A stretch of 28,995 nt of DNA from a virus: positions 1 through 28,995 of the IMG/VR virus record IMGVR_UViG_3300009537_000127; one strand, written 5' to 3'. Below are positions 8,616-28,073 of the stretch, one piece after another. Every line of letters begins with the position of its first letter. Position 1 is the first letter of the stretch. Below the pieces are notes generated by a model that searched no databases, was not told the DNA's origin, and saw only the letters and a program-made list of their open reading frames with translations. A program made the translations under genes and the position numbers.

Positions 8616-8625
8616 GAGTGCTAAG

Positions 8626-8808
8626 ATGAAGCACGTTGACCAGTTCGGAGATTCCGGGAAAGGCGTAAGAGACGCGCTTCAGCTCGTGTTGAAGAAGAAT
8701 GGGAAGCCTGTGGCTGGAGTCCATGTGGACAAGGACAATACGGAAATCAGGTCACCGACCCTTCAACGGGATGAGCGAACAGGAAGCGATGATGCGGTTG
8801 GTCGATAG
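8626..8808 (+). CDS. Small hypothetical protein (60 aa) in the tail operon
   Basis: The start ATG at 8626 has AGGAG at a good distance and sits 10 nt after the stop of the large tail gene. The product is 60 residues, starting MKHVDQFGDSGKGVRDAL, with a helical first part and a charged, polar C-terminus. No transmembrane segment, signal peptide or cysteine motif is present. Its 3' end overlaps the next gene by 20-38 nt in another frame, depending on which start that gene uses. The strong ribosome binding site and operon position argue that it is translated; no function can be given. Confidence 0.5.
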   Translation: MKHVDQFGDSGKGVRDALQLVLKKNGKPVAGVHVDKDNTEIRSPTLQRDERTGSDDAVGR

Positions 8809-9361: not shown

Positions 9362-11841
9362 GCACGTCCGACAAGTTCAAGACCCATACCGAGATGGTCA
9401 CGGACCTGGAATTCATCCAGTTGCTCGATCACCTCGAGTCTGGGTCTCCGGAAACATCGGGAACCAATCGTCCCTTGGGGAGAATTGCCAGGAACACGGA
9501 CGCGCTCTTGGACGTGTTGCAGGCCTCGAGGTTGCTCCCCTTCTCATTGGGAGGCGGCACCATCAGCTGGAATGGGTCCCAGCTTGCGTGGTCTTCCGAT
9601 ATCACAATTCCGTTGGCAAGCGAGGTCGGTACAGGCGTCTACAACACGATTTCGGCTGGCAACGTCACGCTTGCTTCTGGAGAACTGGCTTACGTCCAAC
9701 TCGATCGAACCACTACAGGCGCCACGGTTACGGTCTCGACCGCTGCAAGCTTTGCGGCCTATCGAACCGTGGTTACGGGTAGCGCTGACCGTCTTGACTT
9801 CATGGTTATTGCCGTACGTGAGGGTACGAGCGTCATCCTTTTCGACGGTCGACGTCTACGAACGGGCGAGTCCTACTCGAACAGCGGCTTTACAGATACC
9901 CAGTACGGCCAACAACTCGAGCTCACGACAGTCCACGACAATCAGAAGGAGAACTTCCGTATCACGCTGACGGGGGGCGGAACCCTGACCTGGGACGAAG
10001 GCACTACGACCTTCACTTGGAGCTCGGATTTGATTGTCGAGTTTCCGAGCTCTGCCGGCGACAACGCGATTACCGCCGGCTCGAAGGTCATTACCGCAGG
10101 GCAGGTTGCGTACATTACGCTGACTCGCTCTCCAGGAACGAGTCAGGCCAAGACCCTGACCGCGGTGGCAAACGGAAGTCTGCCCACAGGCGACGACATC
10201 CTGGTCGTCGCCACGCACAATGCAACGGACGGTCGCCTGTACCTTTGGAACGGGACCGCGCTCTCGGACGGGGACTCCGTTGTCTTGGGTGGGGTACAGG
10301 CTGGGTTGCAGTTCTACTTCAAGGGGGATGGTACAGCAGTTCAGGTCACGGACCTGACGGAAGGAGGTACGTACCCGAACCGTGCATATCGGGTCGGTAC
10401 CGGTCAGCTCATGGTGTACAAGAACGGGGTGAAGGCCAAGGCCTCGGCCGAGCACTGGCAGGGCGGTACGTACCCGACCGGGTCGATGACCGGCGGTGGC
10501 ATTTCCAACGACGACGAATACGTCGAAGAGGATTCGGGAGACGGAACAGGTACCCGCATTATCTGGTTGGCGGATGGGCAGGCCGTGGCTGAGCCGCTCT
10601 ACCACGCAGCTGCCACTCACGACCCAGAGTTTGAGTGGCCTCAGGCCGATGATTACCTCGAGGCCTTTGTAGGCTTGCAAGGAGAGGGCCCTAGTCCGGT
10701 CGAGAGCATCGAGGCCGTGGACAGTGGAGATATACCCAAAGCAGGAGGTCCGCTAGAGGGAGCGGTCAAGCTGAAGGAAGGCACGAACGTCACGCTCACA
10801 CATGACGGAGCAGGTAATGCGGTCGTCATCTCCGCAAGCATCACCGCAGGCGTGAGCTCGTTCGAGGTCTCGGGTGGCGGGCAGGGCGCACAAACCGGAG
10901 CGATGCTCCTCATCGGCGGTACGGGCATCACCCTTGACGATACCACACCCGGCGAAGTCGACATCAGTGCGGATGTCCAAGACCTCGAGGACCTGGGCGA
11001 TGTCTCAGCCGACTTGGCCAACGCGGTCAAGGGAGCAGAGGTTGCGGACGCTACGAACGTGATGGTCACGAAGTTCGACTTGATGAAGGTCGTCGGCTTC
11101 GACAAAATTTGGACTTTCCAGGACGATGTACTGGCCGTGGGAGGCGGTGCGCTCCGACTTGGGGACGAGACCTACGTTCATGACACGGGGTCTCCGCTGT
11201 ACATTCAAGACTCGGACCTGTATGGCTCCGAGGTGCTCTCTTCAAGCAGATGGTACGGTATCTACATCGGACCCGGAGGTACGCCCGGAGGCTCCCCCGT
11301 AGGGGTGATTTCCAGGCACTTCCCGAATTCAACCACTGGGAAGTACGGAGTTCATCCTGATGACGAGGATTACGCCTACATTGGGTGTGTCTATGTCGAC
11401 TCCTCAAGCAAGTTCCGTTCCTTCTCCAAGGTAGATGGCCGGACGGTCCTGGGTGCCGGATATGACGTCACATCCGCATTCTCGTCCTTCCCCTCGGGCT
11501 CCTATGTCAGCGTACCGCTGACGGCACTGGCACAGCTTGAGGGCCCTTCTCCTGTGTACTACAAGCTGCGCCTGCTCCTGCAGGGTGACGGTACGGGACG
11601 AGGGGACATGTCCAGCTTCAAGTGCAGAGGGTACTCTGGATTCACTGCCAGCCAGACAGTCTATGTCATCATCTCTGATGATGACCTCGCCGTTGCCGAT
11701 GTCGAGATTCCGGTTGGTACAGATGGAGGTCGCGCCGAGTTCCTGATTTCTGCCGTCGACAAGTGGGATGGCGTGGTTGGCGCCTGGATTGTCGGCTTTG
11801 GCGACGGGCGCTACTCTGCTGATGAGGAGATGCCGGGCTGA
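9358..11841 (+). CDS. Tail-fibre-like protein with two copies of a shared beta domain
   Basis: This 827-residue protein is read from TTG in a TTGA overlap with the previous stop; GGGAG lies about 8 nt upstream, supporting this rare start codon. After an N-terminal helical attachment region (1-58), residues 61-171 and 201-320 are two copies of one beta domain. Its pattern is 'GGGtisW....l.WSSDi.v ... i.aG.v.la.G..AYi.L.R ... d.l.v.A.....r..LfdG..L..G'. Next comes a fibre-type module (about 330-430; 'GTGQLMVYKNG'). A Gly/Asp-rich stretch follows, with 'LEDLGDVSADLANAVKGAEVADATN', and the C-terminus (about 690-827) is beta-rich and may be the receptor-contacting tip. It is paralogous to the following gene. 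No enzymatic motif was seen. Confidence 0.68.
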   Translation: MSTSDKFKTHTEMVTDLEFIQLLDHLESGSPETSGTNRPLGRIARNTDALLDVLQASRLLPFSLGGGTISWNGSQLAWSSDITIPLASEVGTGVYNTISAGNVTLASGELAYVQLDRTTTGATVTVSTAASFAAYRTVVTGSADRLDFMVIAVREGTSVILFDGRRLRTGESYSNSGFTDTQYGQQLELTTVHDNQKENFRITLTGGGTLTWDEGTTTFTWSSDLIVEFPSSAGDNAITAGSKVITAGQVAYITLTRSPGTSQAKTLTAVANGSLPTGDDILVVATHNATDGRLYLWNGTALSDGDSVVLGGVQAGLQFYFKGDGTAVQVTDLTEGGTYPNRAYRVGTGQLMVYKNGVKAKASAEHWQGGTYPTGSMTGGGISNDDEYVEEDSGDGTGTRIIWLADGQAVAEPLYHAAATHDPEFEWPQADDYLEAFVGLQGEGPSPVESIEAVDSGDIPKAGGPLEGAVKLKEGTNVTLTHDGAGNAVVISASITAGVSSFEVSGGGQGAQTGAMLLIGGTGITLDDTTPGEVDISADVQDLEDLGDVSADLANAVKGAEVADATNVMVTKFDLMKVVGFDKIWTFQDDVLAVGGGALRLGDETYVHDTGSPLYIQDSDLYGSEVLSSSRWYGIYIGPGGTPGGSPVGVISRHFPNSTTGKYGVHPDDEDYAYIGCVYVDSSSKFRSFSKVDGRTVLGAGYDVTSAFSSFPSGSYVSVPLTALAQLEGPSPVYYKLRLLLQGDGTGRGDMSSFKCRGYSGFTASQTVYVIISDDDLAVADVEIPVGTDGGRAEFLISAVDKWDGVVGAWIVGFGDGRYSADEEMPG
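9538..9870 (+). repeat. Shared tail-fibre domain, copy 1 of 3
   Basis: This segment encodes residues 61-171 of the 827-residue fibre-like protein. Landmarks are GGGTISW, LAWSSDI, ISAGNVTLASGELAYVQLDR, DFMVIAVREG and LFDGRRLRTGES. These align in the same order with copies 2 (9958-10320) and 3 (11919-12242). Conservation is at protein level; the DNA is clearly diverged, so the duplication is old. Confidence 0.7.
9958..10320 (+). repeat. Shared tail-fibre domain, copy 2 of 3
   Basis: This segment encodes residues 201-321 of the same protein as copy 1. Landmarks are GGGTLTW, FTWSSDLIV, ITAGSKVITAGQVAYITLTR, DDILVVATHN and LYLWNGTALSDGDSVVLGG. It is closer to copy 3 in the GT.L.DGDS segment and to copy 1 in the WSSD segment. 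Confidence 0.7.
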
Positions 11842-14868: not shown

Positions 14869-15329
14869 GGCGACACCGGGGGCGGATAGGGGTCCTCCTC
14901 TTCGAGGTCGAGGGGCTGAAGCACCGCGACCAGACAGCGGGTCGGAGCTTCCCTCTTATGCAGACAAACCGTGAAGTTATTCCTGTCTCGGATACCTACC
15001 AAGGCCGCGATGCAGTCGAGGGCGAGCTTGGCCATGTTGTCGACATCTACGTCCTTGAACGGAGACTTTGTGCGCTTGTCCTTGCCATAGCCGACGTTGT
15101 AGAGTTCCGAAAAGGGTAGGAAGTACCAGAGATGAACTTGATACTTCTGGTCGTTGTCTGCATTGAAGAACGCTAACTCGGTCTTCTTGAGCCCTCCTCC
15201 CGAGGCGATGAACTTGTTCCTGAAGGCCTTGCCTTTCTTCGAGAGTACCTTCCTTCCCTGGTAAACCCGGTACAGGTTGTTCACCGAGACCGGGAGCTCC
15301 GGGAACTGGAAGACCAGGTCATTCATCAT
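14862..15329 (-). CDS. rusA: RusA-like Holliday junction resolvase
   Basis: This 155-residue protein is of RusA-family size or slightly larger (E. coli RusA is 120). Family features are visible. The N-terminal strand is 'LPVSVNNLYRV', then 'GRKVLSKKGKAFRN'. The core is 'KDVDVDNMAKLALDCIAALVGIRDRNN', with acidic residues D93, D95, D97, D105 and D115, and the conserved lysine is K125. RusA dimers cut four-way DNA junctions using clustered aspartates and Mg2+. The usual DD pair after the core is D115-R116 here. The C-terminus is Pro-rich (PYPPPVSP). Two tandem ATGs (15329, 15326) overlap the end of the ThyX-like gene by 11 or 8 nt. In phages RusA resolves replication or recombination intermediates before packaging. 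Confidence 0.82.
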   Translation of the reverse strand: MMNDLVFQFPELPVSVNNLYRVYQGRKVLSKKGKAFRNKFIASGGGLKKTELAFFNADNDQKYQVHLWYFLPFSELYNVGYGKDKRTKSPFKDVDVDNMAKLALDCIAALVGIRDRNNFTVCLHKREAPTRCLVAVLQPLDLEEEDPYPPPVSPW

Positions 15330-17124
15330 TCAACCCCAGATAGGGTTCGTATGAGAGCGGAAGTTCGGCAATCAGGAGTGCGAGTGCCTTCTTGGCCTGG
15401 GCCTCGTACTCGAAGTTCGCGCCCCGGGCGTTCGCTCGTAGACGGAACATGTACAAGGCTTTGGACAACCCGCCCTGCCCCGAGGCGTAGACCGCGGCGC
15501 CGAATGGAATGGCCAGCATCGCACGCGGCAGGTCTCCCTTGTTGATGAAGTTCCGATAGACCGCCCAGGAGTCCTCCAGCAGCTTCGGAACCTCGGCCTT
15601 TCCAAGGTCACTCAACGGCGTGTACCTTGGGTGTAGAACGAAGCTACTCCGCCCCATCTCCTTTACGGGGCTGAACGCCCAGGGTGCGAAACTCCGGTGG
15701 CGATGCCAGTCCCGGAGTACTGCCAGGGAGCATACGACCTTGAACGTGACGCGCGCAGCTCGGTCGAGCCAGGCGTCTACGTACGTGCGCTCATTCGGTG
15801 GCGTGTAGGGACGAATGAGCGGGTCGATGCCATGTGTATCGACTACGAGCTCGACCTCGTTTTCGATGTAGTAAGGAGAGAGGGCTAGGGCTCGTCTGGG
15901 CGTGAGCACAGCTCCAGGAACAACTGGGTCCTCGCCGTGCACGGCATCCCGGAGGCCCAGACCGGACAACCCAGGCAACGCTTGTTTGTACGCGTTCTCA
16001 ACGTGTTCCCAGACCTTCAAGGCCTCGTCGCGCGAGATGGCCTTACCGACCTGGATGCTCCTGGCCATGACCCTCAGGTTCGCCGTGTGCGAAGACCCGG
16101 ACGCGACAGTACCGGGGATGGCAAACCTGGCTCGGTCGAGTGCAGGCCGGAAGGCCTGTGGGTCGGTGATGAACGGGTACTTCTTTCCCGTACCAGCGCA
16201 GGAAATGCATGGTCCACTCTCATGAGAGTGCTCGAACGAGTCTGGAGGAACGTAGTTGCCAGACCCCTGGCAGGTAACGCAATCGCTCCGCAGCTCGGCA
16301 GCCCAGGCTGGAACCTCGTGTTCGAAGACGTCGAGCCATCGTTGATGCAGGTCTTCGAGTTCGAGTATCGACCTGTGCGTGACCAGAATGTCTCCTTTTT
16401 CAACACCGCCTGCCTGGTAGTCGTAGATTTGGTCGTAGTGACTGCGTTCGGTAGTTACCCCCAGAGGTTCCACTGTGAGGGTGGAGCCCTGGACGTTCAC
16501 GACCTTGTGCTTCTCGCTCTCATAGGCTTCTGAGCACATAGGCCAGTTCTTGCGTCGGATGGCCCGAGTGCTGAACTCCTGACCGGCGCAGAGAGGCTGG
16601 TCGAACAGCAGGTAGTTGGTGAACCAACTCACGTTCTCGACGTAGATGCTGGGTGAGCCTGTGAGCTCCAGGATGCTGGAATGCCCGTACTTGCCGACAT
16701 GCTCGTCGAAGAATGCCTGGACCCGCGGGTGGAGAGGGTAGACCGTAAGTAGGTCTTCTGCGGGACCTATGAACTGGCTGAACGTGTGCGTTGCCCATTC
16801 TCGAAGCGTGATGGGTGGGTCGTTGCTGATGTGGTTTGGGGATTCCGGGTCTACGTCCTGTCCGCCTGGGTGGTAGAGCGTGTCCCGGTCTTCGAGAGCT
16901 TCCGCCAAGGAGGGGTTGCCCAGGGATTCTAGGACTTTGGCATGTGTCTCCGCCCACAGCGCGGCTACGATTTCTTGAACGACCTGGTTGTAGCGAGCGT
17001 AGATACCTCCTTCGGGAAGCCTCGAGGCCATGGCGCAGAACATGGCGCGGACCTCGGGTGTGAGCCGGTGGTCCAGGTACCAGCAGTTCGAGTTGGCTCG
17101 GTGTAGGTACTTGTACTGGTTCAC
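15319..17124 (-). CDS. Two-domain ThyX-like protein (FAD-dependent thymidylate synthase superfamily) with zinc-motif insertion
   Basis: This 601-residue protein is about twice a normal ThyX (220-250). The first Thy1-like half shows 'KYGHSSILELTGSPSIYVENVSW' and 'LFDQPLCAGQEFSTRAI' (E183, S185, R187), then 'ARFAIPGTVASGSSHTANLRVMARSI' at 332-357. The second half has 'LRDWHRHRSFAPW' (RHR at 475-477), 'RYTPL' and a long helical end. This order matches the duplicated Thy1 family. ThyX methylates dUMP using folate, NADPH and FAD. The first half lacks the RHR signature (DQP instead). Two insertions are odd: a beta-rich piece at about 203-255 and a DnaJ-type motif C282-x2-C285-x-GSG ... C306-x2-C309-x-GTG. 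ATG overlaps the previous stop (ATGA). Activity, or use of a modified pyrimidine, is not shown by sequence. Confidence 0.7.
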   Translation of the reverse strand: MNQYKYLHRANSNCWYLDHRLTPEVRAMFCAMASRLPEGGIYARYNQVVQEIVAALWAETHAKVLESLGNPSLAEALEDRDTLYHPGGQDVDPESPNHISNDPPITLREWATHTFSQFIGPAEDLLTVYPLHPRVQAFFDEHVGKYGHSSILELTGSPSIYVENVSWFTNYLLFDQPLCAGQEFSTRAIRRKNWPMCSEAYESEKHKVVNVQGSTLTVEPLGVTTERSHYDQIYDYQAGGVEKGDILVTHRSILELEDLHQRWLDVFEHEVPAWAAELRSDCVTCQGSGNYVPPDSFEHSHESGPCISCAGTGKKYPFITDPQAFRPALDRARFAIPGTVASGSSHTANLRVMARSIQVGKAISRDEALKVWEHVENAYKQALPGLSGLGLRDAVHGEDPVVPGAVLTPRRALALSPYYIENEVELVVDTHGIDPLIRPYTPPNERTYVDAWLDRAARVTFKVVCSLAVLRDWHRHRSFAPWAFSPVKEMGRSSFVLHPRYTPLSDLGKAEVPKLLEDSWAVYRNFINKGDLPRAMLAIPFGAAVYASGQGGLSKALYMFRLRANARGANFEYEAQAKKALALLIAELPLSYEPYLGLNDE

Positions 17125-17564
17125 GGCGCCTCCCCGTGTTTTTGGCAGAACAGGATGCTGAACGGGTAGGGCAGAGTTCCGTTTCCGACGATGGTACAGC
17201 CGCAGGTGTTGTGGGCGTAGGTTCCATCGGTATGGGATTCAGGCTCATCCAGGTCCCAAGTCCTTGGGTCTACTGGACTGTGTCCGATGCGTGTTCTGTA
17301 CTGAAGCGGAGTCTCTCCAGGAAAGTACTTGTGGTTCGGCCAGTTTCTGCGCATGAACTCATTTCGAGAAAGTCCAGCGTCGTTGAAGACCACGGCTCTG
17401 GGTTTCTCGTTCTCGAAGACGCGTTGAAGCTTGACCTCGTACTCGCTATGGATTTCGCCCAAGCTCCCCAGAGCTTGATTGGCAAGTATTCTGGCGTCAG
17501 GGTTATCTAGAGCCGTAAACCGAAGTCGTAGGGTGAGTAGGTATGTACGTTCGTCGTCACTCAT
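17121..17564 (-). CDS. Hypothetical protein with C-terminal CxC...CxxH motif
   Basis: The chosen ATG at 17564 gives 147 residues. It is preceded by GGAGGGG at good spacing and overlaps the upstream stop by 8 nt. A longer in-frame version from 17816 has unbiased, arginine/serine-rich sequence and is rejected. The N-terminal 50 residues are helical ('LTLRLRFTALDNPDARILANQALGSLGEI'). The middle is polar with 'RRNWPNHKYFPGETPLQYRTRIGH'. The C-terminus has C121-x-C123 and C140-x2-H143, likely a zinc site. It ends with an ATGA overlap onto the ThyX-like gene. No family was recognised. Confidence 0.6.
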   Translation of the reverse strand: MSDDERTYLLTLRLRFTALDNPDARILANQALGSLGEIHSEYEVKLQRVFENEKPRAVVFNDAGLSRNEFMRRNWPNHKYFPGETPLQYRTRIGHSPVDPRTWDLDEPESHTDGTYAHNTCGCTIVGNGTLPYPFSILFCQKHGEAP

Positions 17565-18207
17565 CGCTCTTTCCCCTCCGCCTGGAAAATCTTGTTCCTC
17601 TAGTCCATGGGCCTGCTTTGGTACGACCCTCCGGGCTGTGACGCTCTCGCTGCATTTCCTCGGCTCGGCGCGTCTGCTCTCGGCTGATGTTGTTGAGCGT
17701 GCGTTTGAACTGTTCGTAGCGTGAGTTCGTCTGGATGTAGTACACGCTTGCACGCAAGAGCGAGGCGTCGACATCGACATATCTCTTGTCGGTGTTGACC
17801 TTGTCGGGCACGGCATTGGCCGGGATTTCCAGCTCTTCTTTGTAGTAGACGTTCAATGCGGACTCGATGACCTTGGAATCGCGCTCAAGTACGAGCTTGA
17901 TACACTTGGCACGAGTGGCCTCAGCCTGCAGGTAGTTGGCCCAGTTGGTGAACAAGCTGAAGAGCTTGCCCGTGTCCTCATCTGTGAGGACCGTGAGGTC
18001 ATCGGGCATACGCGGGTCGCCGTTCTCTTCGAACTCGAGCATGTTCTCGAGCCCATCGGGGCAGGAAGGAACGGGTAGGACGGTACTGACCGCGGCTTTC
18101 TGGAGCTCCTCTTCTACCTCCGGTATGATACCGTCGTAGATTTCGATGAGCTCCTCGACGCGTACTGCGTGAGGAACTGGAAACCTCTGGGCGGGTTCGT
18201 CGCTCAT
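17557..18207 (-). CDS. Conserved-looking phage protein of unknown function in the recombination operon
   Basis: This 216-residue protein overlaps the Cas4-like gene upstream by ATGA and the next gene by 8 nt. Residues 15-40 and 75-115 are helical ('GKLFSLFTNWANYLQAEATRAKCIKLVLERDSKVIESAL'). They are followed by a helical 'DKRYVDVDASLLRASVYYIQTNSRYEQFKRTLNNISREQTRRAEEM' and a very basic tail (RTKAGPWTRGTRFSRRRGK). The pattern of a helical body and basic tail next to RecA and a RecB-like nuclease suggests a recombination accessory or DNA-binding factor, but this is inferred from context only. GGGGAGG lies upstream of the start. Confidence 0.6.
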   Translation of the reverse strand: MSDEPAQRFPVPHAVRVEELIEIYDGIIPEVEEELQKAAVSTVLPVPSCPDGLENMLEFEENGDPRMPDDLTVLTDEDTGKLFSLFTNWANYLQAEATRAKCIKLVLERDSKVIESALNVYYKEELEIPANAVPDKVNTDKRYVDVDASLLRASVYYIQTNSRYEQFKRTLNNISREQTRRAEEMQRERHSPEGRTKAGPWTRGTRFSRRRGKSDE

Positions 18208-19562
18208 CTTGCTCTAATCCTCCCCTGTACAGCGGCCTGTTCTTTCCTGCGGAAGAGCTCGGGTCTGCAAATCCACCCGAACTTGCACTTCCTACACTGG
18301 TACTCGTTGTCAATCCGGTCCGGGAGCTCTGCCTTACCCTGTAGGTAGTCGTCAACTATCTGGATGATGCGTTCCGCCCGCCCAGCCATGGCGTGCCACT
18401 GCTGTTTGCTGGGCGGCTGTAGGAAGCTCCGGAGTTCCCCCGTCTCCTTGTTTACGTACAGGTATTCGACCTTACTGACATCGAGCCCGACGCCATAGAG
18501 CGTGGCTTGCTTCTTGTGGTCCTTCTTTGGGCTGCGTAGGGTCTCAAAGCCCTTGGACCCGATACTCTTGATTTCGAAGCCGTGGTCGGGGAGAAGGCCA
18601 TCGCATGAGCCGCGAACTCGATATTGCTTGAGCCAGACCTTGACCTCTTCTTTGAAGTCGGGGAATGCCCATTGAAGCGCATTCTGGACCACGTCGTGGA
18701 AAGCGTACCCTGCATCGAAGATACGACGGAGCTTCGGGTCATGATTTTCTCGCTGCTTGGTTCCCATCAGTCCGTAGGCAACAGCACGGTCGCACTCCGT
18801 GACCGCGAAATGAGAAGGGCTGATACGCTTGTCCCCTTTGAAGCGGAAGCGCTCGTTCTTCGACCATAGATACTTCTCGAGCTCCTTGACCAACCGAGGC
18901 TCAAGCTTCATCACCAGGTTCTCGCCGAACGGTTCTGGGTCGTCCATGAGCGTGGCATCACACGCGTTGTTGAACGGGCAACGTCTACACGTGGTCTCGC
19001 CAGCGGTTCCCATCCTATGGGAGGTCCCGTCAAGAAGCCCGTGAATGAACTGGGCTTCTTGAGCAACGATCTCGCCAACAGCCTCGAAGTCCCCTCGGAG
19101 AGTCCAGCTCGACCAGTCCAACTTGTCCCGGTCGAGCAAGATGACCCAGGCTCGGTCCATGCCAGCCAACCAAGCCTTGGCTGCGGTAATCAACCGTGCC
19201 CGTTTGGTCATTCCTCCGTTTTGGAACAAGCCTGTAGGTGTGGGCACGACTTCGACGAACGCGTTCTCCCACACGCCAATGTTGCTGACCACGACCACAT
19301 CATGAAGCATGTTCGTGGTCCCGACTTTGAATGTGTCAGGAAAGGCTTTTCGTAGGTAGCGTTGGACCATCGCTCGCAGGTTGTATCCAGCCTCTCGAAG
19401 CAGGATGTCTGGTCCCGGTTCGGGCTCCGTCGGCTCCGTTCCCAAGAGCTGCAGGTAGTGGCGAAACCCACAACCCTTGTCAATCAAGTCCTCGAGGTAG
19501 ACCTCCTGGGGGTAGCTACGATTCTCCTGGAGTGCCTGGTAGACAGCCTGTACGGTGCTCAT
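18204..19562 (-). CDS. Tandem-duplicated Cas4/RecB-like Fe-S nuclease (PD-(D/E)XK)
   Basis: This 452-residue protein is about twice a usual Cas4 (around 200). The C-terminal half has C257, H279 in 'AGYAFHDVVQNAL', D321 in RGSCDGLL, E330-I-K332 and C403-x2-C406-x5-C412. This is the full Cas4/AddB-type nuclease with four-cysteine Fe-S site. The N-terminal half repeats the plan: C31, 'AGYNLRAMVQRYLRKAFPD', a 'VVSN....AFVEVV' strand pair, 'AAKAWLAG.DRAWVILLDRDKLDW' and C192-x2-C195-x5-C201. The nuclease H is replaced by R and the ExK lysine by V, so this copy is probably inactive but may keep its cluster. Such enzymes resect DNA ends for recombination. It overlaps its neighbours by ATGA on both sides. 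No CRISPR genes or array are nearby. Confidence 0.78.
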   Translation of the reverse strand: MSTVQAVYQALQENRSYPQEVYLEDLIDKGCGFRHYLQLLGTEPTEPEPGPDILLREAGYNLRAMVQRYLRKAFPDTFKVGTTNMLHDVVVVSNIGVWENAFVEVVPTPTGLFQNGGMTKRARLITAAKAWLAGMDRAWVILLDRDKLDWSSWTLRGDFEAVGEIVAQEAQFIHGLLDGTSHRMGTAGETTCRRCPFNNACDATLMDDPEPFGENLVMKLEPRLVKELEKYLWSKNERFRFKGDKRISPSHFAVTECDRAVAYGLMGTKQRENHDPKLRRIFDAGYAFHDVVQNALQWAFPDFKEEVKVWLKQYRVRGSCDGLLPDHGFEIKSIGSKGFETLRSPKKDHKKQATLYGVGLDVSKVEYLYVNKETGELRSFLQPPSKQQWHAMAGRAERIIQIVDDYLQGKAELPDRIDNEYQCRKCKFGWICRPELFRRKEQAAVQGRIRAR

Positions 19563-20194
19563 GTCGTTTCTTCCCGGTCCTCGAGCAGGAGCTCGAAGTC
19601 TCGTTCATGCAGAATTGCTCCAGGCGGGTCAAGCTGGAGGAGCTTGGCTTCGACCAGGTGTGAAAAGGGTTTGAGCAATGCGGTCTTGCCCGGGTCGTAC
19701 TGCTCGTTTGGGGACCAGGGGCCGCCTCGCAGGCCTTCGTACATCTCTTTGCGGATGACTACATAACGGCCAGGTCTACGTGTCTTGGTCTGTCCCAATC
19801 GAATATGGAGTAGCGGCTCTTCTCCGTTGCGGAGCGCTCCTTCGACTAGTTTGTGCCACGTCTTTTGGTGAAGACGGTATGTCGGATTCCTGGTCTGTTT
19901 GGACTCTGTACGCCAGGCACCGAACACACGTCCATCTCCGTCTTCGTTGACTGCTCCAGACATCAGGGTCTCCCTTGCACCAACCAAGGCGTTGGCCCTG
20001 GCCTCCTGTTTCTGCCAGCGTTTCTGGCGTAGGTGTCTGGGCTGAGCTCGCTTGAATAGCGAGCAAGTAGATGCGTGTTCGATGAAGTCGCGCACGCGTA
20101 CCCGTCCATGAGAGAGCTCGCGGACGATTTGTACCTCGCCTTCGACACCACACTCTTTGCAGGTCGTGGTGCGGAAACCAGGTTCGATATTCAC
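19559..20194 (-). CDS. Hjc-like PD-(D/E)XK endonuclease with N-terminal zinc finger
   Basis: This 211-residue protein follows RecA with an ATGA overlap. The N-terminus has C12-x2-C15 and H40-x3-C44, a probable zinc finger, then a basic region ([22 protein letters not shown]). The core reads '[34 protein letters not shown]' and then 'EEPLLHIRL' and '[13 protein letters not shown]'. Residues D85/D87, E97-S-K99 and the following strand fit the PD-(D/E)XK fold of Hjc-type Holliday junction resolvases and related phage nucleases. It probably cuts branched or recombining DNA. Another junction resolvase candidate, RusA-like, lies at 14862-15329. A related restriction-like nuclease function cannot be excluded. 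Confidence 0.65.
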
Positions 20195-21243
20195 TTGTTC
20201 CCTTGAATCTGCTTGAGCGCAGCCTTCGTGATTTGCTCGACGAGTTCGGGATGCTCGATGACCTGCTTGGCAGTCGAGCGCTTACCCTGACCGAGGCTCT
20301 TGTCGCCGAAGCTGTACCAAGACCCGCTCTTGGTGATGATGCCCAACAAAACCCCGTAGTCCAGGAGCTCGCCCGCCAAGTCCGTTCCCTTACCGAAGAG
20401 CAGGTCGACCTCGCATTTCCTGAAAGGAGGAGCAAGCTTGTTCTTCACGACCTTGAAGCGAACTCGGTTTCCTATGTGGTCTTCGCCCTTCTTGATTGAG
20501 CCGATGCGACGTACATCGATGCGCACCGAGGCGTAGAACTTCAAGGCATTTCCGCCCGAAGTGGTCTCCGGGCTTCCGAACGTGATGCCAATCTTGTGGC
20601 GAATCTGGTTGATGAAGATGAGACAGGTCTTCGAGTGATGCACGATGCCCGCGAGCTTGCGAAGAGCTTGACTCATCATCCGCGCCTGGAGACCGGGGTG
20701 AGAGTCTCCGGTCTCGCCATCGAGCTCGGCTTGTGGAACCAAGGCCGCGACCGAATCAATGACGATGACCGTAAAGTCCCCGGAGCGAATAAGGGCTTCA
20801 GCGATGTTCAGCCCTTGTTCCCCTGAATCGGGTTGACTGAGCAACATCTCCTCGAGGTTGATCCCCAAGGCCTCGGCATAGACCGGGTCGAGTGCGTGCT
20901 CAGCATCGATGAACGCCGCAGTACCTCCCGTTTTCTGCGCACGGGCGATTATCTGCAAGGCGAGTGTGGTCTTACCCGAAGCCTCGGGGCCGTAGATTTC
21001 GACCACGCGGCCTCTGGGCACTCCGCCAATCATCAAGGCTGCATCCAAGCTCATGCAGCCCGTGGAGACGACATCCACGGGCTCGACCTTGAGCATGTGC
21101 TTGCCCTTCAGCGTTCCTACCGTGCCTTGGCCGAAGCGCTTCTCGATTTGGGCGATGGCCTCGTCCAGTTTTTTCTGTCTCTCTTCAGCAGTCGCACCCA
21201 AGGCCAAGGCCTCCGGGGACTCACCCTTCTTTCTGCGGGCCAT
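20191..21243 (-). CDS. recA: RecA recombinase
   Basis: This 350-residue protein has an unmistakable bacterial RecA sequence. Walker A is GPEASGKTT (85-93), the catalytic E115 lies in DAEHALD, Walker B is [12 protein letters not shown] (D163), loop L2 is around [20 protein letters not shown], and 'INQIRHKIG' and '[10 protein letters not shown]' follow. It forms ATP-dependent filaments on single-stranded DNA and catalyses strand exchange. It ends in QIQGNK and lacks the strongly acidic tail of many cellular RecAs; that tail restrains activity in E. coli. The ATG shares a base with the stop of a 44-residue gene (TAATG), and GAGG lies upstream. Downstream nuclease genes overlap it, so it heads a recombination set. 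Confidence 0.97.
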
Positions 21244-21379: not shown

Positions 21380-23233
21380 CTACTTTCCTTCGTACCAGCT
21401 GGGTACGACTTTGGGTGAAACCTTGAGTGAGACCTGAAGTGGAATCGCCGTTTCCATGTATTCCTTGATGACAGGTAGGACCGCTTCCACGTTCTGGGTC
21501 GGTACCTGCATGACGAACTCATCGTGAATCTGGATGAGGAGCTGCAGGCCCATGGTCTTGGTAAGCCATGCATCGTTATCGATGGTCACCATCGCCTTCT
21601 TCACGATGTCAACGGCCGAGCCCTGGATGGGCGCGTTCATGCCCTGACGTTCTGCGTGCCGGCGCTCCTTCCAGTTCCCGCTGTGGACCTTGGAAATCCT
21701 GCGGAACCGGCCCATGATGGTTTGCACATACCCGTTCTCATGGAGCGAGTGGATGCAGTACTCCATGTAGTCGCGTACACCCGGGAATGAATCCAGGAAC
21801 AGGTCGAGGAGTTCCTGTGCTTCCTCAACCGAGATGTTCAGGTCTTCGGAAAGGCCATATGCGGTCTTGCCATAGACGATGCCAAAGCCGATGGCCTTTC
21901 CAGCTGCTCGCTTCTCTACGTACTCTGGGTCCTCTTCAACCTTGGCCTTCTGGTATATCTCGTCGTAGGGAATACCGAACATGACCGAAGACGTATAGCA
22001 GTGGATGTCCAACCCGGACTCAATAGCTTCGATCATCGACTTCTCATCCGCGGCTGAAGCCAGGATGCGCATCTCCAGCTGTGAGTAGTCGGCAACAATC
22101 ATCGAGTACCCGGGGTCGGGTACGAACGCAGCGCGAATGCGGTGAGTATCTCCGCTCGGGCGTGGGATGTTCTGCAGATTCGGCTTCTGAGAACTCAGGC
22201 GTCCAGTGACCTTCACTGCACTGTAGGTCGTATGAATGTGCCCGTCCTTGTACAAGTGCTTGAGCATGCCTTCGCAGTACGTGCCCTTGAGCTTGCTTGC
22301 CTTCTTGTAGCGAAGAATCAGGTCACACTCTTCGACTCCTGTTCGCGCATAGTGAGTGAGCACTGCTTGGTCAGTCGTAGGCCTTCCGGTTCCAGTCTTG
22401 GACAGGATTTCCAAGCCCATTTCGTCGAACAACAAACGAGCAATCTGTGGGCCGCTGTTGGGATTGATAGGCCAACCACAAAGCTCGTTCAGCCGTGCAG
22501 CGAGTTCGTCCATCTCGTTCTGCAACGACTCGCTCACACGTTGGAGTCGTTCGACGTCAATGCGGATGCCCCGGCGCTCCATCCCATACAGGGTGCAGAG
22601 TTGGGGTTCCTCGATGTCCCAGTAATGGTCTTTGAGCGTGAAGTCCTCGTCGTGCCAGAGACGGATGTTGCTCAGCTTCTCAAGCAGGAAAAGTGCAAGC
22701 TTTCTACTTGCCCAGGGGTCGAGCGAGGCGTAGTCCAAGAACTGGTCCCACTTCTCGTGACCAGGCAGGATTTTCGTGATGTCTTCGTTTCCAAACAGCT
22801 CGCCATAGCTTGCCATCGGGATTCCGAAGTAATCGAACACGCACTCTTTGAGGCCGTGCCGGTTCTCTCGCGTGTCCTCGTCGTGTAGGAAGTCCAGTAC
22901 CACGGTGTCAGCGAATTGCCCTTGGAGGAAGATGCCGGCGTTCTCTAGACGATGCCGGTCGAAATTGAGGAACGTGAGTGCCTTGGGCACGCGAGGGTTT
23001 TCGAGTACGGGCTTGAAGTGGTGAACGTACTTTCGGGGAACGAGGTAGCGCGTGCTCTCGTCTGGACAGAGACCCATGACCACGACCTGGTCGGTCATGT
23101 TCGTGTATTTCTTACCCAAGGTCTCGGTATCGACACCGAGCATGGTCGAGGCACGACATCTGCGAAGTGCGGGCTCGACCATGCTCGGGTCATGGATGTA
23201 AGTTGGCGGTGGTGCCGCCATTACGAAGCGCAT
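21380..23233 (-). CDS. polA: Family A DNA polymerase (Pol I-like) with 3'-5' exonuclease
   Basis: This 617-residue replicative polymerase lacks the 5' nuclease domain, as is usual in phages. Exonuclease motifs are intact: D35-x-E37 (GVDTET), D92 in 'NFDRHRLENAGI', and Y168-x3-D172 (YASLD). Polymerase motif A is VADYSQLEMRI with D392. Motif B is R452-x3-K456-x3-F460-x3-Y464. Motif C is IQIHDEF with D551-E552. 'TGRLSSQKPNLQNIP' matches the conserved fingers/palm segment. Residue F460 sits at the E. coli F762 position, which affects ribose selection. The start at 23233 follows GAGGAGG closely and overlaps the previous gene by 13 nt; a second ATG at 23221 has poorer spacing. Confidence 0.96.
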   Translation of the reverse strand: MRFVMAAPPPTYIHDPSMVEPALRRCRASTMLGVDTETLGKKYTNMTDQVVVMGLCPDESTRYLVPRKYVHHFKPVLENPRVPKALTFLNFDRHRLENAGIFLQGQFADTVVLDFLHDEDTRENRHGLKECVFDYFGIPMASYGELFGNEDITKILPGHEKWDQFLDYASLDPWASRKLALFLLEKLSNIRLWHDEDFTLKDHYWDIEEPQLCTLYGMERRGIRIDVERLQRVSESLQNEMDELAARLNELCGWPINPNSGPQIARLLFDEMGLEILSKTGTGRPTTDQAVLTHYARTGVEECDLILRYKKASKLKGTYCEGMLKHLYKDGHIHTTYSAVKVTGRLSSQKPNLQNIPRPSGDTHRIRAAFVPDPGYSMIVADYSQLEMRILASAADEKSMIEAIESGLDIHCYTSSVMFGIPYDEIYQKAKVEEDPEYVEKRAAGKAIGFGIVYGKTAYGLSEDLNISVEEAQELLDLFLDSFPGVRDYMEYCIHSLHENGYVQTIMGRFRRISKVHSGNWKERRHAERQGMNAPIQGSAVDIVKKAMVTIDNDAWLTKTMGLQLLIQIHDEFVMQVPTQNVEAVLPVIKEYMETAIPLQVSLKVSPKVVPSWYEGK

Positions 23234-24366
23234 GCCGCCTCCTCGAGACGAGTGACGAGTTCCTGTAGGGACGTAAGGTCTGGTTCGAGACCCGTTGCGT
23301 CTTCTAAGACCTCGAGTTGGTCACATAGTTGCTGCGCCTCTGTTTGCATGTACTCGCAACGAGTCTTGGACAGCGGGCTCTTTTCGGTCTCGTAGCGGTC
23401 GAGCTCGTCAAGACGTTCGCTGACTGTTTTCAAGATGTCTTCGACCAACCAGGCTTGGCACTTGGGTCTGGCTTTGAACAACTCGACTTCGATGTCGCCA
23501 TCTTCCCAGCCGTTCCAGCGTAGAACACTGACAGCCAACAACAGGCCTACGCCCCAGTTCAACCATTGGTTCTGGGATGCCTTCTTGACCAGACCGGCCA
23601 GGTCTTCGTCCAGGTCGAGGTTGGAGGGGTCGTGTAGGGCCGGGTTGTACAGCCTCTTTCTTGCGTGCTCTTCGCTCACCCACGATACTGAAGCTGCATC
23701 GTGGAATAGCTTACGGCCCCGTTGGTCCTTCCTTCCGCCCCCGTTGGTTTGTGGTGCAATCAGACCGAAGACCGCGTCCCCGTACTCGTCTTCGGTATAG
23801 GCGCCAATTGTTGGGGGGAGTTGTTGGTCGTCCTCTTCTCTCTTGTCAGGAATTCGGACAGCGAGGCCCAGGTCATAAAAGGCCTGAAACCAAGAACCGT
23901 CCACAGACAAGACTCGGTTTTCGAGCCTGAAGATGAACTGCTCTGGTACCCGGTTCGGTGTGCGGACACCGTGTGCCCCGTAGACAGGGCGAGCCCTCCC
24001 CGCTTCGAATTCAGCGGTCAGGTCGTATCCCGGGGCATACAGAGCGTAGGCACTACGCTCGAGTAGTTCGCGTAGTGCCGAGACGTTGGTGTTCGTGTAC
24101 ACGAACAGGGGTCGAGCGGTCTTTGCTCGGGCCGGGATGAACTTCTCTTCGGGGAAGAAGACCTTTCGAGCATTCAACGCAGCCCAATCCAAGGCCTTGT
24201 AGTTGTCTGTGCTCTCAATCAGGCGTAGTACATGCTCGGGGAAATGGTGTTGGGCTACGGTGATGGCGAGGGCCCAGTGCTTACCGTTCGTAGCGTAGAC
24301 AGCGTCGCCATCAGATATCAAGTACGCGTCGCCCAAAAGGTCTTGTACCTCTTCGGTAAACCGCAT
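23221..24366 (-). CDS. Unknown replication-module protein (381 aa)
   Basis: This protein lies between the SSB-like gene and the polymerase gene, overlapping the latter by 13 nt. The first 60 residues look alpha/beta ('DAYLISDGDAVYATNGKHWALAITVAQHHFPEHVLRLIES'). The middle has beta segments including 'EQFIFRLENRVLSVDGSWFQAFYDLGLAVRIP' and a Gly-rich 'APQTNGGGRKDQRGRK'. The last 130 residues are helical and acidic, with heptad-like leucines, 'LVEDILKTVSERLDELDRYETE' and 'LCDQLEVLEDATGLEPDLTSLQELVTRLEEA', probably a coiled coil. No catalytic motif is seen. Position suggests a replisome accessory such as a clamp, loader or processivity factor, without direct evidence. It starts after a hairpin with GGGGG before the ATG. 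Confidence 0.6.
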   Translation of the reverse strand: MRFTEEVQDLLGDAYLISDGDAVYATNGKHWALAITVAQHHFPEHVLRLIESTDNYKALDWAALNARKVFFPEEKFIPARAKTARPLFVYTNTNVSALRELLERSAYALYAPGYDLTAEFEAGRARPVYGAHGVRTPNRVPEQFIFRLENRVLSVDGSWFQAFYDLGLAVRIPDKREEDDQQLPPTIGAYTEDEYGDAVFGLIAPQTNGGGRKDQRGRKLFHDAASVSWVSEEHARKRLYNPALHDPSNLDLDEDLAGLVKKASQNQWLNWGVGLLLAVSVLRWNGWEDGDIEVELFKARPKCQAWLVEDILKTVSERLDELDRYETEKSPLSKTRCEYMQTEAQQLCDQLEVLEDATGLEPDLTSLQELVTRLEEAACAS

Positions 24367-24410: not shown

Positions 24411-25631
24411 TCAACGTCGACGGAAGCGCGAACGGTTGAAGGCCCGCGACCGTTCGGTAGTTGGCTGCTCTTCGAATGGGTTGTCTCGCTCCAGCACCTT
24501 GGCCTGGGCCTTGAGCACGGCCTGGACGTAGGCTTCGTCGTTGTCGAACTTGTCCCGGTCCACGTACTCGGGCCGGAGCAGGTGCTCGAAGTCGACGGGA
24601 GTCAGGAGCTCGTCGATTTCCTTTTCATCGCACCCGTGCTCTTCGAGCTCGTCGATGAGGCTCATACTCGGGAACGCGTCGGCGTTGAAGTTGTAGTCTC
24701 GGTAGGTCTTCGACCCATCGCGTGACAACTTGCCACTGCACGTGATCTTCAGCGACATGTCGAACATGGTGCGCCGACGAATCGGGTTCTCGTCCGTACT
24801 CTGGACTTCGTTGTCCGCATCGTCGATGGCAATCCAGACCTCGAGGGGCAGAGCCGTGCGCTCACACTTCGGGCACAGGTACTCTTCTTGTGTCCACTCC
24901 TCGAGGCGCAAGCCCTCTTCAGCGTTGACGATGGTTGTAATCAAGTCCTCGTCAACGTCTCGCTCCTCCCCGTCCCACTCGAGGATGCAGTACTCACCAC
25001 ACTCAGCGCAGAGGAAACCGATGGTGATGGCCGTATACAGGTTGCCCTTGGAGTCAATAGCCGAAGCCATGAGCTCTTCATTCAGGGTGACCAGCGGCTC
25101 CATTCCCTTGTCCGACTGGTCCCACTTCTTCCGGCCACCGAAGTACCGGGCTGAGACCTCACGGTCCTTGCTCGAACAGTACTTGCAAGAACGACCGCGT
25201 CGAAACTTGGGCACTCGGTCATCCGAGGCGCAGCGCTTGCCCACCTTCCTCTTCTTGTTGTTCTTTCCGGTTTCCTCCACAATGTGAAAATACCGGTAGT
25301 CCATCATCTCGAGATAGGACCGGAAGCGTGGGTACAGGTTCTTTCGGTCCTCGTCGTCGCGACCTGCACGGTCGTAGAAGTAGCAGTAGACACACTTGCC
25401 ATCAAAGACCGGGATGTCGGACGTGCATCGACGGTCCCTGGACTTCACGCGGTGATGGTTGGCCATGAAGAACCCGTTCTCGCCCGGATCGATGATCCGA
25501 CCTCGGGCAGAAGGTTCGTCGATGTCCATCTTGTAGTTGTCAAAGTCCCAGGGGTCGCGGTCTTCCCACTCGGGGGTCTTCTTGACTTCAGCGGCCTTCT
25601 TGCGGAAATTGCGAAATGCGTTGGGAGGCAT
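24411..25631 (-). CDS. Multi-zinc-site protein, candidate single-stranded DNA-binding protein
   Basis: This 406-residue protein lies between the primase and polymerase genes. Residues about 55-85 contain H59/H60, C69, C80 and C83. That gives H-x8-C-x10-C-x2-C, close to the H-x12-C-x9-C-x2-C zinc site of T4 gp32-type SSBs. More cysteine sets follow: C134 with C149-x2-C152, C208-x2-C211-x3-C215, and C253-x2-C256. The N-terminus (FRNFRKKAAEVKK) is basic and the region about 330-390 is acidic. Unlike gp32 and bacterial SSB, the C-terminus is basic (FNRSRFRRR). The SSB assignment rests on position and the first zinc site only; an RNA/DNA-binding accessory is the alternative. The start overlaps the primase gene by 44 nt. 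Confidence 0.55.
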   Translation of the reverse strand: MPPNAFRNFRKKAAEVKKTPEWEDRDPWDFDNYKMDIDEPSARGRIIDPGENGFFMANHHRVKSRDRRCTSDIPVFDGKCVYCYFYDRAGRDDEDRKNLYPRFRSYLEMMDYRYFHIVEETGKNNKKRKVGKRCASDDRVPKFRRGRSCKYCSSKDREVSARYFGGRKKWDQSDKGMEPLVTLNEELMASAIDSKGNLYTAITIGFLCAECGEYCILEWDGEERDVDEDLITTIVNAEEGLRLEEWTQEEYLCPKCERTALPLEVWIAIDDADNEVQSTDENPIRRRTMFDMSLKITCSGKLSRDGSKTYRDYNFNADAFPSMSLIDELEEHGCDEKEIDELLTPVDFEHLLRPEYVDRDKFDNDEAYVQAVLKAQAKVLERDNPFEEQPTTERSRAFNRSRFRRR

Positions 25632-26700
25632 GGTTCTCTCTTTTCCAGGCGGTATTCAGCGTTCTTGTTGCTAGTTGTGCGAGGGTCTTTGCGTTTTTGA
25701 CCATGTAGTCGACTTCTTCTCTCGTCAGGTCATCTGGGCTCGTGCCGTTAGGCTTTTGAGTGTATGGGTCTTCGTCAGTCCACCCCGGGTACAGACAGAG
25801 GTAGGTTCGGCCAAGCTTGAACAGGTGCTCGCTAATCTTCACAGCTGCGCAGTACCCGCGTTCGTCTGGCCAGCTCTTCCCAGGCTCGTGGTCCAGCATC
25901 ACGTAGTAGGGACCGCGGAGCTTCCCGAGCAGCAAGCGCTGTGAACGAGTCAGCGAGTAGCCCATGAGGGCGACTACATCCTCGAACCCGAGCTGCCGAA
26001 GCCACATGCGGGCCTTGAAGCCCTCCACGATGATGAGTGGACCACGTTCGGTTGGCTTGTAGAAGCGTTTGGGGAACACTTCGTCGTAGCCATACAAGTG
26101 CTCTCGGTTAGCTGGTCTGTAGCTGTCAACCAGGTCACAGAGCTCACCGCCCGTACCGTTCTTGGCACGGTCTTTGTCGGTGTCGTACACCTTATACCGG
26201 GGAATCGCGCCGTCTTCACAAGCACGTCCGCTAATGGCGACCAGTCGGCCCATGTAGTCACGAATAGGGAAGGTGATTCGGTCGTGTACTTGGTCGTACC
26301 CGACGTCGTGTTGTCTGAGTGTTTCCTCCGTGAATCCCTGTTCTAGGAGTTGCAAAGGGCAACGGTCGTACGCGGCGAGTATGTACTCAGGAAGGGTTGT
26401 TACTTCTGGAGGTCGAACAACCTTTTCTCGAACTCTGTACTTGCGAGAGACTGGTGGTTGGAGGTTGAGCTCCTTGACCAGTCTGTCAACCTGTTTCCGT
26501 GTAAGGCCCAGATGACCTAGGAGCCGGACGATGCCGCCCCCCGTGTGGCAGGCAAAGCAAGTCCAGACTCCGTAGCGGAGGCTGATGACAAACGTGCGAC
26601 CATGTCCGCAGAGCGGACAATCAGCCCGGAGGTCATCGTCTCCCGTAGCTTTCGTGTTCTTGAGGTACTTATCGGCGAGTCGCCGTACCTGCGCTTCCAT
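25588..26700 (-). CDS. dnaG: DnaG-type primase (CHC2 zinc finger and TOPRIM)
   Basis: This 370-residue protein makes RNA primers for lagging-strand synthesis. The zinc-binding domain has C28-x2-C31 ... C48-x2-C51 with 'GVWTCFACHTGGGIVRLLG'. The catalytic core shows 'RITFPIRDYMGRLVAISGR', the DnaG 'FPI.d..G..vg..gR' signature. TOPRIM follows: LIIVEGF with E226 and VMLDHEPG with D270 and E272. The second TOPRIM acid is therefore E where D-x-D is normal. There is no helicase domain, in contrast to T7 gp4; the helicase is the adjacent gene, whose stop shares a base with this ATG (TGATG). It is shorter than cellular DnaG (about 580), lacking the helicase-binding domain. Confidence 0.9.
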   Translation of the reverse strand: MEAQVRRLADKYLKNTKATGDDDLRADCPLCGHGRTFVISLRYGVWTCFACHTGGGIVRLLGHLGLTRKQVDRLVKELNLQPPVSRKYRVREKVVRPPEVTTLPEYILAAYDRCPLQLLEQGFTEETLRQHDVGYDQVHDRITFPIRDYMGRLVAISGRACEDGAIPRYKVYDTDKDRAKNGTGGELCDLVDSYRPANREHLYGYDEVFPKRFYKPTERGPLIIVEGFKARMWLRQLGFEDVVALMGYSLTRSQRLLLGKLRGPYYVMLDHEPGKSWPDERGYCAAVKISEHLFKLGRTYLCLYPGWTDEDPYTQKPNGTSPDDLTREEVDYMVKNAKTLAQLATRTLNTAWKRENHASQRISQFPQEGR

Positions 26701-28073
26701 CAGCGAACCTTCATTGCCGCCCGACGTCTCTTGAAGTCACCTGGACGGAACCCGCCTCGGTGGATTGAGGACTTCTCTGCCTGAGGATGTTTGACTCCAT
26801 TTCTCTTCTTGCTTTCTTCGGATTCCTCCTCAGCTTGTTCGTAGCCTTCGACCCAGTCGGCCTTGGTGTCTAGTTGGACCCCAAAGTCTTGGCAGAGTTT
26901 GCCGTTGATGGTCATTGCTAGTCCTCGTCTGACATTGCGGCCTTCATTGACGATGATCGCAATCTTGTCTTCAGCGTCGTTGGCAATGACTCGGAGGGCT
27001 AGGTCAACGCGACGAGTGATGTGGTCACTCCAAGCGTGCTCGGTTGATGACTTGCCGCGCGACTTGTCCCCTTCACGATTTGCATGACCGCACATGATGA
27101 GTGGTTTCTTGAGCTTCTTCTTGTGGTAATCGCAGAGTTGGTCGACTGCTCGGGCGACGAACAGATGTTGCTTCGAGAGACTTCTGCTCTGAGCCGCGGC
27201 CGCATCAGCCAAGGCCTTGAAGTAGTCGTGAATGACTACGTCCGGGTTGTACTCCTCGACCTTGGCCTTGTATGCATCGATTTCTCCGCTTACGTCTGTG
27301 ATGATGAACTTCCCGGACTTGTACAGCTCGTCGATCACCTCTTCGAGGGCAGCCAGGTCTTCGTCTGAGACCTTGCCTCCTGTGAAGTCGGACCAGTCGA
27401 GCTGTGCTTCCATCGCGAGCGCTCGAAGCTCGATTTCCTCGATGGTCATCTCGCTGGTAAAGAACAGGACACGCAATCCCATCCTGACCAGGTAGAGGGC
27501 GATGCAGAGCAAAATCCAGGTCTTGCGGCTCTTCTGGCGACCGTAGAAGTAGATGACGTTTCCGGGACAGATACCCCAGGTTTCGTTGTTGAAGTGCTCC
27601 CAAGGCCACCTGTAGCCGAGTAGACCCGCGCCCTCGCGGAGACGTTCTACCAAGCGCAAGGTTCGGTCTTTGTCTGCTCCTACGACGTAGTCGTTCGCTC
27701 CATCTTGGTTACTGACGTTGACGCGGTCTGCAATTTTGACCAGCAGGCTCTTTGCTTCCCATGGGTCGATGGCGTTCTTCTCAGCAATGCTGGTCAGGCC
27801 TCCGTCGATCTCTCCTCCGAGCTTGATGGTCTTCAGCTCGTGAACAATGGCGTCGACACTGTCACCGGATGGGTTGTGGTCGTAGCCAGGAGCAAGGGAT
27901 GAGAAGTGTTCTAGTGTCGGGACTTCGTGAAAACGTTCGTGATGGTCACTGATGAGGTCCCAATAGACGCCCGCTTCGTCGTCTAGGAGTTCTGGTCGGG
28001 CCCCACAGCGAATTGCCTCGAGGTAGTCACGAGATTCCAGCACGGCCGCAACCAGTGCCAGACCATGATGCAT
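26700..28073 (-). CDS. dnaB: DnaB-like replicative helicase
   Basis: This 457-residue protein has an N-terminal helical domain (about 1-100, MHHGLALVAAVLESRDYLEAI), then a RecA-like ATPase. Walker A is G178-R-Q-K-S-R183-K184-T185. The usual glycine before KT is arginine, a variation within phage DnaB-like proteins of the 'SMKTW' kind. 'FFTSEMT' (E208) fits the DnaB catalytic motif, 'PDVVIHDYFKAL' (D283) is Walker B, and 'KKPLIMCGHANREG' and 'RRVDLALRV' follow in order. It unwinds DNA at the fork and works with the adjacent primase. GGAGG lies 4 nt before the ATG in a palindrome. It is the first gene after a 125-nt gap with a promoter candidate. The C-terminus is basic (FKRRRAAMKVR). Confidence 0.88.
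   Translation of the reverse strand: MHHGLALVAAVLESRDYLEAIRCGARPELLDDEAGVYWDLISDHHERFHEVPTLEHFSSLAPGYDHNPSGDSVDAIVHELKTIKLGGEIDGGLTSIAEKNAIDPWEAKSLLVKIADRVNVSNQDGANDYVVGADKDRTLRLVERLREGAGLLGYRWPWEHFNNETWGICPGNVIYFYGRQKSRKTWILLCIALYLVRMGLRVLFFTSEMTIEEIELRALAMEAQLDWSDFTGGKVSDEDLAALEEVIDELYKSGKFIITDVSGEIDAYKAKVEEYNPDVVIHDYFKALADAAAAQSRSLSKQHLFVARAVDQLCDYHKKKLKKPLIMCGHANREGDKSRGKSSTEHAWSDHITRRVDLALRVIANDAEDKIAIIVNEGRNVRRGLAMTINGKLCQDFGVQLDTKADWVEGYEQAEEESEESKKRNGVKHPQAEKSSIHRGGFRPGDFKRRRAAMKVR

Follow-up and report, generated by a model that had tools for sequence, protein, structure and literature searches.

The gene at positions 24411 to 25631 of the window, by which we mean the whole stretch of DNA analysed here (a virus record of 28,995 bases), very probably encodes the replicative and recombination protein that would bind single-stranded DNA (ssDNA) in an uncultivated phage. 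The best reading of our data is that the ssDNA-binding protein (SSB) of these phages represents a distinct family with the fold of gp32, as judged from a structural model. By the same model, its members would be SSBs of the gp32 fold to which metal modules have been added; their tails vary, and the family is unnamed in the libraries searched. The protein encoded in the window is predicted to carry three metal sites, a fourth site found in relatives having been lost.

Replication operon and identification of the family

The SSB gene lies in a minus-strand replication operon that comprises, in order, genes for a helicase, a primase, the SSB, a 381-aa protein, PolA, RecA, a resolvase and a Cas4-type exonuclease. 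The neighbors of the SSB gene are as follows.

26700..28073, minus strand: DnaB-like replicative helicase (PHROG 19, E 4.7e-28)
25588..26700, minus strand: DnaG-like primase, overlapping the start of the SSB gene (PHROG 47, E 6.6e-37)
23221..24366, minus strand: product of 381 aa encoded between SSB and PolA; unmatched in Pfam and PHROG, and found at the same position in L002, L004 and L013
21380..23233, minus strand: PolA with 3'-5' exonuclease domain (PF00476, E 2.3e-111; PF01612, E 5.8e-12)
20191..21243, minus strand: RecA/UvsX-like recombinase (PF00154, E 4e-124)
19559..20194, minus strand: Holliday junction resolvase (PHROG 2002, E 2.8e-19)
18204..19562, minus strand: Cas4-type exonuclease (PHROG 1706, E 4.6e-27; PHROG 1990, E 5.2e-19)

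By its size, the 381-aa protein may suit the role of a sliding clamp. Elsewhere in the window, the gene at positions 15319-17124 (minus strand) has a product of 601 aa in which a ThyX domain (PF02511, E 4.7e-8) lies close to the C-terminus and two CxxC pairs lie internally, around residues 283-315.

Relatives of the window protein were collected by way of the neighboring genes. The polymerase led to L002 (a 43% identical homologue), a profile to L004, and helicase and primase profiles to L013, then to 18 loci and then to 80 loci, some of which are duplicate contigs. These primase-anchored scans of viral contigs yielded 74 further distinct members, such that the resulting alignment (A15) holds 75 distinct sequences, the window's included; L093, which is near-identical to L097, was omitted.

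The window protein on its own had no match among viral contigs, none by phmmer among PDB sequences, and no SSB match in Pfam or PHROG. A tblastn search with six members against 50,697 phage records likewise gave no match, and a scan of genome contigs returned 50 pattern matches, none of which was a relative. When all 75 members were searched against Pfam and NCBIfam, no SSB model was matched at E 0.01. Where single members gave weak matches in PHROG, Pfam or NCBIfam, these were set aside as short, confined to the zinc region or due to chance. A literature search revealed no description of the family by title or abstract start, within a coverage that leaves out all bioRxiv preprints and most subscription papers. 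The first-pass annotation, made from the sequence of the window, had suggested that the protein might represent a distinct SSB class. This proves right at the level of the family, of which 0/75 members match a PHROG at E 0.001.

Features of the window protein

The gene and the regions of its protein, including the predicted metal sites (Z1 to Z4), are located as follows.

24411..25631, minus strand: SSB gene, ATG start, 406 aa, coordinates including the stop; assigned by family and predicted fold
25560..25631, minus strand: N-terminal basic arm, residues 1-24; low model confidence (pLDDT about 41-46)
25383..25454, minus strand: Z1, gp32 type, H60, C69, C80 and C83; kept in 63, 63, 74 and 64 of 75 members
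25176..25286, minus strand: Z2, H116, C134, C149 and C152; H116 kept in 53, C149 in 52 and C152 in 52 of 75
24864..25010, minus strand: Z3, zinc ribbon, C208, C211, C253 and C256; kept in 75, 75, 75 and 74 of 75
24819..25061, minus strand: place of Z4 (site lost in the window and L044), near residues 191, 199, 268 and 271, by aligned columns
24414..24476, minus strand: C-terminal tail, residues 386-406, with aromatic F398 and a basic end; recognized by the aromatic column and the charge in the clade

Four cysteine clusters and a basic C-terminus had been pointed out at 24411-25631 in the first-pass annotation, which gave no strand (it is minus), and both are present. The cysteines fall at 69, 80, 83 / 134, 149, 152 / 208, 211, 215 / 253, 256, with two more at 298 and 334, and the final 20 residues hold 7 K/R versus 3 D/E. 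The protein as a whole is acidic, with an isoelectric point of 5.2. At the other end, a net charge of at least +3 over the N-terminal 30 residues is found in 56/75 members. The N-terminal arm of the window protein, which is modeled as a low-confidence helix, is a candidate counterpart of the gp32 B-domain.

Predicted fold and relation to gp32

AlphaFold2 run on the 75-sequence alignment produced a model with a mean pLDDT of 88.1 and a pTM of 0.82, in which residues 1-28 and the tail are uncertain; the single-sequence run reached a pLDDT of 34. A gp32-core (OB) fold is predicted over residues 24-384. The first-pass annotation had proposed an SSB and had named structure prediction for an OB fold around residues 50-330 as a check, and the gp32-type OB core found in the model supports that proposal.

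When the model was compared with the PDB by VIA-align, T4 gp32 (1gpc) ranked first with a Z score of 9.8, an rmsd of 4.5 and 199 of 218 residues aligned. The other leading entries are all gp32 cores as well (2a1k, Z 9.7; 8gme, 8.8; 2atq, 8.5), and the fifth entry falls to 2.4. Foldseek also places gp32 at PDB ranks 1-4, with probabilities of 0.95-0.99 and E values of 2.2e-3 to 3e-2, none of which reaches E 0.001. The aligned span covers 361 residues of the model, of which about 160 are unpaired in gp32; most of these probably belong to the added metal modules. T7 gp2.5, N4 SSB and bacterial SSB do not appear among the VIA-align rows with Z of at least 2, and may still be distant kin. In BFVD, the predicted structures nearest to the model include one from an uncultured phage that is annotated as SSB and one of Pseudomonas phage SM1 that is uncharacterized.

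Profile comparison with gp32-like families, another check that had been proposed, gave a divided outcome. On one side, gp32 was recovered at borderline strength: hhalign places residues 25-85 on gp32 28-94 with a probability of 47.6% (6.2% for a primase-alignment negative control), and a profile search of all PDB sequences gave 21 matches, only two of which lie wholly in the core, both to gp32 (E 0.025 and 0.027, positions 38-157). The remaining PDB matches fall in or around the zinc-ribbon region and are nearly all zinc fingers or ribbons. On the other side, neither the gp32 sequence model PF08804 nor the bacterial SSB model PF00436 matched any of the 75 members at E 0.01. The SSB proposal would have been contradicted by homology to a known non-SSB family. 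None was found over the core; the matches obtained were to generic models of zinc ribbons or zinc fingers, or were short and due to chance. We keep the family apart from gp32 (PF08804) on the outcome of two comparisons: the sequence model is unmatched, and an acidic gp32-type A-domain is absent from the window tail, with acidic tails occurring in some relatives.

Metal sites

The first cysteine cluster had been likened to the zinc site of T4 gp32, and this likeness extends to all four Z1 ligands, since the hhalign register pairs H60/C69/C80/C83 of the window protein with H64/C77/C87/C90 of gp32. The latter are named as the zinc ligands of gp32 in a passage of a review on T4 replication (PMC3012046). 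Each of the first two cysteine clusters is accompanied by an upstream histidine (H60 and H116) that was absent from the earlier description. The cysteines of all four described clusters are present, but the third and fourth clusters are two halves of one zinc ribbon rather than separate sets. Within the third cluster, given as C208/C211/C215, the first two cysteines are ligands throughout the family (75/75 each) and C215 is no family ligand. We judge the clusters to be beyond chance because the ligand positions are conserved across the 75 members, as illustrated by C208, C211 and C253 (75/75) and C256 (74/75). The third cysteine of Z2 is less fixed in position: 9 sequences have it at the C134 column, and another 41 have it in a shifted column.

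The ligands of Z4 are present in 72, 69, 72 and 66-67 of the 75 sequences, and none remain in the window protein or in L044. Losses of this kind tend to strike whole sites. At least three of the four Z1 ligands are gone in 9 sequences, versus a mean of 0.29 (maximum 3 in 2,000) in column shuffles, which ignore kinship. By the same measure, Z2 is lost as a set in 23 sequences (shuffle mean 6.4, maximum 13) and Z4 in 2 (shuffle mean 0.06). On a quick tree, in which long branches are flagged at L120 and L113, the minimum numbers of changes are 5 for Z1, 9 for Z2 and 1 for Z4. In L046, a near neighbor of the window, the four Z1 positions are occupied by V, A, D and N. Such set-wise loss is as expected of ligands that share one metal.

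Zinc is the presumed metal at Z1-Z3. Four-ligand Cys/His sets by themselves leave the identity of the metal unfixed, and one or more of the sets (Z2 or Z3) might instead be iron-sulphur cluster sites or redox switches. We regard this as improbable given that Z1 aligns on the gp32 zinc site and that the Z3 region matches zinc-ribbon and zinc-finger chains.

A repeat of the form RC.SD...C.YC between Z1 and Z2 was considered as a duplication and set aside as unproven, as it is not family-wide. Separately, the gp32 homologues of Caulobacter phage Cr30 and Synechococcus phage S-RIM2 (L128 and L129) are without the zinc-site Cys ligands, which indicates that metal loss also occurs within gp32 proper.

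Gene order and role in replication

The order of genes in the family is DnaB helicase, primase, SSB-family protein and PolA. Using a family HMM, we found a member as the next gene after the primase in 79/80 primase loci, the sole exception (L073) being a locus that stops 223 bp past the primase. Closeness to the primase is built into these counts because the primase served as search bait, and the result lies in the constant identity of the neighbor. A DnaB-like helicase is located upstream in 79/80 loci and PolA downstream of the member in 77/79, and both loci that lack PolA (L102 and L123) stop just past the member. The spacing between the SSB gene and PolA is about 1.2-1.4 kb in several loci of the window's clade and almost none in many others. 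The same replication module, including the family protein, is present in L019 and L020 on 74- and 110-kb contigs from different samples. In L038, a 797-aa PolA (7123-9516, plus strand) bears an apparent intein in its polymerase domain, read by eye, with an N-terminal Cys and a C-terminal His-Asn followed by Cys.

Exactly one family member was found per record in 20/20 records (the window and 19 others), which may be fragments, such that another SSB type could lie beyond them. PF00436 was found in none of the 20 records, with a control match in 10/14 genomes; PF08804 was found in none of the same 20 at E 1, with its control below the cut-off in cellular control genomes. A comparable gene arrangement is found in the Streptomyces phages Gilson and Coruscant and the Rhodococcus phage Francesca, where an annotated SSB lies between primase and polymerase in the order helicase, primase, SSB, polymerase, RecA and resolvase, with an HNH/endonuclease gene interposed in some. 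The helicase identity in this comparison is only about 20-23%.

The replicative SSB reading draws on the predicted fold, on the gene order, and on the presence of one member, with neither PF00436 nor PF08804, in the 20 records. A constant place between primase and PolA would also suit a zinc-dependent accessory of the gp32 fold instead of a general SSB, for instance a recombination mediator or a loader of helicase or primase, whose binding to ssDNA is local only. The extra metal modules, and a window tail that is basic, unlike the acidic SSB type, could be taken in the same sense. Nevertheless, no PF00436 or PF08804 SSB was found in the 20 records, the annotated SSB of Stanwilliamsviridae occupies the same place, and other members bear acidic SSB-like tips, all of which makes this explanation very unlikely. 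The alternative raised in the first-pass annotation, a different zinc-dependent replisome factor, is the less likely one. That the protein is a zinc-ribbon regulator of transcription or translation merely located in a replication operon is hardly credible, because the weak similarity that some members show to zinc-ribbon proteins and to ribosomal zinc proteins is restricted to the ribbon, the predicted fold elsewhere is that of gp32, and gene placement is strict.

The C-terminal tail

An aromatic residue is kept at the F398 column in 63/75 members. The tail is basic (net charge of at least +3 over the last 20 residues) in 9/10 members of the window's clade, several of which carry F-G-G and an Arg-rich end, and it is acidic in L119 and L106, the sister rows of this clade. 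By a fixed rule, an acidic [IVL][PAK][FYW] tip ends 7/75 members (for example EEDIPY, DDDSIPF and EEEDVPY). Among the 1,584 other ORFs of 150 aa or longer in these loci, antisense frames included, just one has such a tip, and it is a duplicate family member. Bacterial SSBs end in an acidic motif that the ends of these acidic-tip members resemble. The bacterial-SSB-type acidic ...[IV]P[FY] tip is absent from the window protein. On the quick tree, the tail class shifts at least 16 times.

The lack of an acidic tail had been remarked on in the first-pass annotation as unusual for an SSB. This assessment agrees with a passage of the phage Enc34 SSB paper (PMC5686142), which compares the T7, E. coli, T4 gp32 and N4 types and describes an acidic tail as characteristic of all prokaryotic and phage SSBs; going by that passage, the basic tail of the window protein is unusual.

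The helicases of the window's clade also have basic tails, with net charges of +2 to +7 over 15 residues in 9/9 loci (L044-L053, the window not among them). Helicase tails of at least +3 are found elsewhere in the family's loci as well (29/69), and a link between basic SSB tails and basic helicase tails in this clade is suggestive only. We tentatively propose, as a possibility that we hold to be somewhat doubtful, a charge-switched interaction tip that is acidic and SSB-like in sister lines and a conserved basic aromatic tip in the window's clade, paralleling the basic helicase tail. A 216-aa protein of the window (17557-18207, minus strand) with counterparts in L002 and L004 also has a basic, Arg/Lys-rich end.

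Comparison with known SSBs and a proposed mechanism

The window family resembles T4 and RB69 gp32 (PF08804; 1gpc, 2a1k and 8gme) in its predicted core fold, in the H-C-C-C site that lies in register, in its flexible C-terminal tail and perhaps its basic N-terminal arm, and in its probable replisome role. Unlike gp32, it has about 160 extra residues within the core that probably hold two more metal modules, the window tail is basic, PF08804 is unmatched, and the genes alongside are DnaB, DnaG and PolA. The SSB of Stanwilliamsviridae and kin (PHROG 9721; Gilson, Coruscant and Francesca) shares the place between primase and polymerase, and those of Gilson and Coruscant have an H..C..C..C set. These proteins differ in their length (236-269 aa), in being without the zinc ribbon and in a conserved terminal Trp. 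PHROG 9721 is matched by 0/75 members, and its hhalign probability is 22% over residues 31-111. Bacterial SSB (PF00436) is likewise an OB-fold protein, and the tail tip is acidic in some members of the window family, which is set apart from it by the lack of a PF00436 match, the extra metal sites and the gp32-type core. A further H..C..C..C set, read by eye, is present in the uncharacterized gp42 of phage SM1 (PHROG 17226), the profile of which shows no significant similarity to that of the window family (probability 1%). The SM1 protein found in BFVD, a weak neighbor of the model (E 7.1e-3), has the same length as gp42.

In the mechanism we propose, a gp32-type OB core stabilized by the metal site Z1 would hold ssDNA. 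The disordered basic N-terminal arm might join neighboring proteins and thereby allow cooperative binding. Z2 and the ribbon Z3, both inserted in the core, could shape or extend a face that binds DNA or partners. Finally, the flexible tail with its aromatic, basic tip would presumably recruit partners in the replisome, replacing the usual acidic tip.

Implications

Reading these proteins as SSBs assigns a function to a gene that occurs in many uncultivated phages and has no name in Pfam, PHROGs or NCBIfam. The same reading brings the gp32 fold into a replisome of the PolA type. The presence of acidic, neutral and basic tails within one family constitutes a natural test of the role of the tail, and members that have lost whole metal sites make it possible to ask which sites an SSB core really needs. 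If the charge switch is true, the docking code of the replisome would have changed over from acidic to basic, and this in a family that loses or gains its metal sites as sets.
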